From Hyaloraphidium curvatum (Eukaryota > Monoblepharomycota > Hyaloraphidiomycetes > Hyaloraphidiales > Hyaloraphidiaceae), in assembly GCA_025558095.1 (NCBI GenBank), contig JAIVFI010000010.1:124001-188000 (forward strand): 64,000 bases of DNA, read 5' to 3'. Positions 35,228 through 35,243 of the stretch are shown piece after piece. The translations under genes were made by a program, and so were the position numbers. The first letter of the stretch is position 1. Every line of letters begins with the position of its first letter. The notes below the pieces were generated by a model. It did not search any database. It saw only the letters and a program-made list of their open reading frames with translations, and was not told the DNA's origin.

Positions 35228-35243
35228 GGCGTATCTAAACGCC
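35228..35243 (+). promoter_or_regulatory. Histone-type 3' stem-loop after H4, left
   Basis: GGCGTATCTAAACGCC, stem GGCGT/ACGCC, loop ATCTAA, then ACCACC. It lies 43 nt past the stop, with CATGTA six nucleotides downstream. Confidence 0.75.

Follow-up and report, generated by a model that had tools for sequence, protein, structure and literature searches.

The closest described counterpart of the element studied here is the histone stem-loop of animals (Rfam Histone3, RF00032), a 16-nt hairpin with the consensus GGYYYUUHUHARRRCC, a 6-bp stem and a UHUH loop, which is recognized by the stem-loop binding protein (SLBP, PF15247). Nematode-type histone mRNA processing employs SLBP without a known U7. 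According to a 2019 review, fungi and plants lack the stem-loop system while some protozoa have it, and fungal histone mRNAs are polyadenylated (PMC6723414). Here, we analysed a stretch of 64,000 nt from Hyaloraphidium curvatum (contig JAIVFI010000010.1, positions 124,001 to 188,000; the window), in which a 16-nt hairpin follows the stop codons of histone H3 and H4 genes. We found that one and the same hairpin stands at twelve canonical core-histone genes of this genome and at no other gene, and that the genome encodes a full SLBP RNA-binding domain. We consider it highly probable that a non-Dikarya fungus has here retained, along with SLBP, the stem-loop in which replication-dependent histone mRNAs end.

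The hairpin reads GGCGT[A/C]TCTAAACGCC and is present in six exact copies in the window, across both arms of an inverted repeat. In arm 1, the H4 gene (34554-35184, plus strand, two introns) is followed by a stem-loop at 35228-35243 (plus strand, GGCGTATCTAAACGCC), and the H3 gene (33750-34368, minus strand, introns present) by one at 33698-33713 (minus strand, GGCGTCTCTAAACGCC). The same arrangement recurs in arm 2, where the H4 gene at 57953-58583 (minus strand) has its stem-loop at 57894-57909 (minus strand, GGCGTATCTAAACGCC) and the H3 gene at 58768-59386 (plus strand) at 59423-59438 (plus strand, GGCGTCTCTAAACGCC). In both arms the hairpin lies 43 nt past the H4 stop and 36 nt past the H3 stop, exactly as stated in an earlier note which had read the element as an animal-type stem-loop in a fungal histone gene. 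The two extra copies, at 32734-32749 (minus strand, arm 1) and 60387-60402 (plus strand, arm 2), each lie 44 nt past the TAA that ends a decayed last exon of H3. When up to three mismatches were allowed, the window gave 14 matches versus a shuffle mean of 1.9, and none of 100 shuffles reached 14.

In order to place these copies in the genome, we counted the pattern over the 31.9-Mb assembly, with the reversed pattern as a control, and located histone genes by tblastn with core histones. Thirteen exact copies are spread over contigs C7, C10, C11 and C24, as against none of the reversed control; by our own arithmetic, base composition predicts about 0.07 exact copies per genome by chance. With at most one mismatch there are 15 matches versus 2 for the control, the additions being GGCGTATTTAAACGCC, a C-to-T variant after the H2A gene of C7, and a site on C2 away from histone genes; this lone non-histone site is within the control level of 2. 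The copies on C10 follow two H3/H4 pairs and those at C11:451k one H3/H4 pair, while the copies on C24 follow two H2A and two H2B genes and those on C7 one H2A and one H2B. Twelve of 14 hairpins are found past the stops of canonical genes (H2A, H2B, H3 and H4, three each), at a distance of 36-49 or 61 nt and in sense orientation in all 12 cases, i.e., the element stands tens of nt past the stop in the 3' untranslated region (UTR) of all four core histone types. Since these four types have unrelated coding sequences, and their 3' UTRs show no visible alignment outside the hairpin, the common hairpin was not simply inherited with a duplicated UTR. Since some gene pairs are recent duplicates, the independent copies number closer to nine. 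The two H2A/H2B units at C24:402000-411000 have H2B copies that are identical through the hairpin and for at least 110 nt of the 3' flank, and then diverge.

In each arm, a further hairpin stands some 960 nt beyond the one of H3, past the decayed H3 last exon (...ARSLRGERS-stop); these are the other two of the 14. The exon and its stem-loop occupy 32734-32796 and 60340-60402, and no other H3 coding sequence was detected from there up to the H3 hairpin, which suggests a relic of a tandem H3 gene or an alternative last exon. The hairpin was not found in the 400-480 nt scanned past a fourth H3/H4 pair (C11:629k), nor in those past CENP-A (C2:762k) and an H3 variant (C3:246k). The element is absent from replication-independent variants and from other genes, and the division between hairpin-bearing and hairpin-less genes matches, as far as sequence can tell, the way in which replication-dependent histone genes are set apart from replacement ones in animals. 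A further divergent H3-fold sequence, at C25:42703-42957, is embedded in a longer frame and is not a normal H3.

The genome also encodes the expected binding partner. The PF15247 profile matched two adjacent exons at C24:320213-320468, and the spliced model (four exons, C24:319388-321382, 608 amino acids) aligns with 67 of the 70 profile positions at E=3.5e-31 and 107.5 bits. A phmmer search of PDB with the domain (E<0.001) retrieved SLBPs only, with 99 bits for Drosophila SLBP (4tux) and 76 bits for human SLBP (4l8r/4qoz). The motifs RQKQIxYGKNTxxYxRY, TP[N/D]K, YSxRxWD and LHxWDPP are kept, and so is the equivalent of Arg181, the residue that reads G2 of the stem (the Arg181-G7 contact of PMC10388802); this G is likewise conserved in the hairpin. 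The RNA-binding domain is thus complete, including Arg181 and the phosphorylated Thr (Thr171) of the TPNK motif. It differs from known SLBPs in having TPDK for TPNK, in its long N- and C-termini, which gave no Pfam matches, and in its fungal host. The N-terminus MLSSANPNKENPG (C24:319388-319420) contains a KEN motif, possibly a degron of the anaphase-promoting complex/cyclosome serving cell-cycle turnover. As a Zn2Cys6 match is located on the same contig, the SLBP gene is not obviously a contamination. The earlier note had proposed to look for an SLBP gene and for the hairpin after H2A and H2B, and both are there, the latter on other contigs; the two findings it had named as fatal, a lack of SLBP and a hairpin scattered after non-histone genes, are excluded at the sequence level by the profile match and by the exact and one-mismatch genome counts.

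How close the RNA itself comes to the animal element has to be weighed in more detail. The two share the length of 16 nt, the GG...CC base, U at loop position 7 and A11, as well as a 3' flank beginning with A or AC, a place shortly past the core-histone stop, the sense orientation and the absence from variant histones. The 3' flanks seen are ACCACC, ACATTC, ACACCC, ACCTTC, AACCTC and ACCCCC, every one of which has A as its first base. Its score of 13 out of 16 consensus positions was correct, with mismatches at positions 4, 6 and 13, of which 4 and 13 do form a compensating G-C pair. What it did not spell out is that the third mismatch costs the loop-closing pair: because A or C at position 6 cannot pair with A11, the predicted fold is a 5-bp stem with a 6-nt loop (-7.9 and -7.6 kcal/mol), one pair shorter than the animal element (6 bp and 4 nt, -9.3 kcal/mol), and the stem core consists of C-G, G-C and U-A.

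Several of these differences count against an animal-type stem-loop, together with others of the genes, the protein and the 3'-end machinery. The hairpin does not conform to the strict consensus with its 6-bp stem and UHUH loop, and it lacks the loop-closing pair which helps binding by human SLBP. Its 5' flank ends in CC at all sites seen, without the two 5' adenines that are part of the minimal human SLBP site (PMC10388802). Rfam Histone3 aligns in register with the site in a 171-nt query, but at 15.7 bits versus a gathering score of 34, and it was listed with that query only, not across the window or the loci L036-L039. Moreover, introns interrupt the hairpin-bearing genes, which is not so in the replication-dependent histone genes of animals, and Asn of TPNK is replaced by Asp. 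A pattern search and the scanning of a few loci with Rfam, which could miss it, gave no U7 snRNA, and Lsm10/Lsm11 were not found among 11 LSM matches (best similarity to SmD1 and SmD2), in a search which could likewise miss them. In favour of the stem-loop reading, no AWTAAA is present within 250 nt past any hairpin examined, but this is weak evidence because the motif is also missing from most of the non-histone genes inspected. The system would work as it does in animals, and its protein belongs to PF15247; the RNA is a variant, short of both the strict consensus and the Rfam gathering score. The animal-type reading of the earlier note is supported, for a variant of the element and not for a strict consensus member. 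Separately, seven matches to a U7 complementarity pattern were inspected and rejected; none combines a convincing Sm site with a strong U7-type hairpin, and one is a tRNA.

Downstream of the hairpins we find a weak AT-rich element rather than the purine-rich histone downstream element. A motif sampler returned it in a loose form (TTGGAATTGAT-, TGAATTG- and TCAATGG-like) 15-45 nt past the hairpins, and none of 60 dinucleotide shuffles reached it at each width tried. Motif windows further downstream were mostly at the shuffle level, with one control run at 0/60 (z 2.7), and simple k-mer enrichment downstream of the hairpins yielded nothing. A weak candidate for the element in the window is TCAATGGACT (35260-35269, plus strand), at +17 from the H4 stem-loop. 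Since a similar AT-rich patch is also present after CENP-A, a gene without a hairpin, the element may be a general 3'-end signal, and in that case the main alternative would be that SLBP binds the hairpin, which regulates translation or decay rather than forming the 3' end, while cleavage and polyadenylation of the mRNAs still take place further on, for instance at the AT-rich element. The failure to find U7, Lsm10 and Lsm11 in limited searches fits such a mode, as does the AT-rich motif itself. However, the element is unlike any known poly(A) signal, the hairpin lies near the stop with an ACCACC flank as in processed animal ends, and the canonical/variant split mirrors that of animals. We regard downstream polyadenylation as unlikely. 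Hairpin and SLBP are shared with nematode-type processing, and U7 was not found here in limited searches. More specifically, and tentatively, an early-diverging fungus may produce histone mRNAs that lack poly(A), by means of SLBP, a derived hairpin of 5 bp and an AT-rich downstream element in place of a U7 snRNP; we hold this proposal as a whole to be less likely than not.

The bearing of these results on fungi depends on the source of the DNA. Zn2Cys6 domains gave 96 matches in the genome, and such an expansion is typical of Fungi. The opisthokont insert NMPWFKGWKKEGKAGEVTGKTLL is present in EF1A, whose best score is with the yeast protein (679.6 versus 667 bits), and two E2F_TDP loci are above the cut-off. 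According to Medina et al. (PMC4862756), zoosporic fungi and zygomycetes retained E2F and Dikarya lost it. Fungal gene content with ancestral E2F/DP kept is therefore read as that of a non-Dikarya fungus, and the genome looks like that of a true fungus outside Dikarya, which supports the label "fungal" of the earlier note. A unicellular relative of fungi, such as a nucleariid or Fonticula, would say little about fungi; the animal- and plant-like H4 sequence speaks for one, but the Zn2Cys6 expansion and the insert-bearing, yeast-like EF1A make it a rather improbable source. Fonticula alba, considered because of the GC-richness and the animal-like H4, is disfavoured by that expansion and by its reported GC content of 70.3% (PMC10752896) versus 65.5% in the window. 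A search for IFT46 gave no match and is uninformative. An E2F-like site, TTTGGCGC, is present in the H3-H4 divergent promoter (window 34456 and the 58674 region); it was not found in the C11:451k, C11:629k and C7 histone promoters examined and is sporadic overall.

From the 95.8% identity of the inverted repeat that holds the window copies, one could argue that the hairpin acts at the DNA level or in transcription termination, or that it has spread as a repeat and lies by histone genes by chance, unrelated to SLBP. This reading is close to refuted by the asymmetry and constant sense orientation of the hairpin, its restriction to histone genes of four families on four contigs, and the bona fide SLBP. 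The repeat consists of arm 1 (32549-37315) and arm 2 (55816-60594), each with an H3/H4 pair, and the identity extends over 4.8 kb. It belongs to a large palindrome (31072-63421), whose arms are 95-96% identical near the histone genes and 73.7% identical further in (38796-41126 versus 52254-54577); this suggests an old inverted duplication with local homogenisation. Within the repeat, the last intron of H3 (59280-59360 and its arm 1 mirror) is seemingly of the TT-AG type (GATATCC/TTGAGT...CAACAG/AGCTC, slashes marking the borders); at the matching position the C11:629k H3 has a GT-AG intron and the C11:451k H3 none.

For the 3'-terminal stem-loop, which we prefer, the following course of events can be proposed. 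SLBP would bind the hairpin in the RNA during or after transcription, reading G2 through the conserved Arg181, and a CPSF73-type nuclease shared with polyadenylation would cut the pre-mRNA after ACC[A/C], a few nt 3' of the hairpin. The mature core-histone mRNA would then have the hairpin, and no poly(A), at its end, and the hairpin-SLBP complex would take over the roles of poly(A) in export, translation and decay linked to S phase. As the mature mRNA would end in the hairpin, SLBP could tie processing, translation and decay to S phase. The hairpin-less H3/H4 pair, CENP-A and the H3 variant would give rise to ordinary polyadenylated, replication-independent mRNAs.

Stem-loops and SLBPs of protists (e.g., Perkinsus, PMC6723414) likewise occur outside animals, although in a different lineage. 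Within partial full-text coverage we found no literature linking SLBP and histones to chytrids or opisthokonts; unpublished annotations may exist. Since SLBP and the hairpin are present in a fungus that keeps E2F/DP, the system would have been lost within the fungal kingdom. If this is true, the loss of the stem-loop system falls inside Fungi and not at the fungal root. The organism would then offer a fungal model of how a cell moves its whole set of core histone mRNAs over from hairpin to poly(A) ends, and a natural hairpin/SLBP pair in which both the stem and the TPNK motif are altered.
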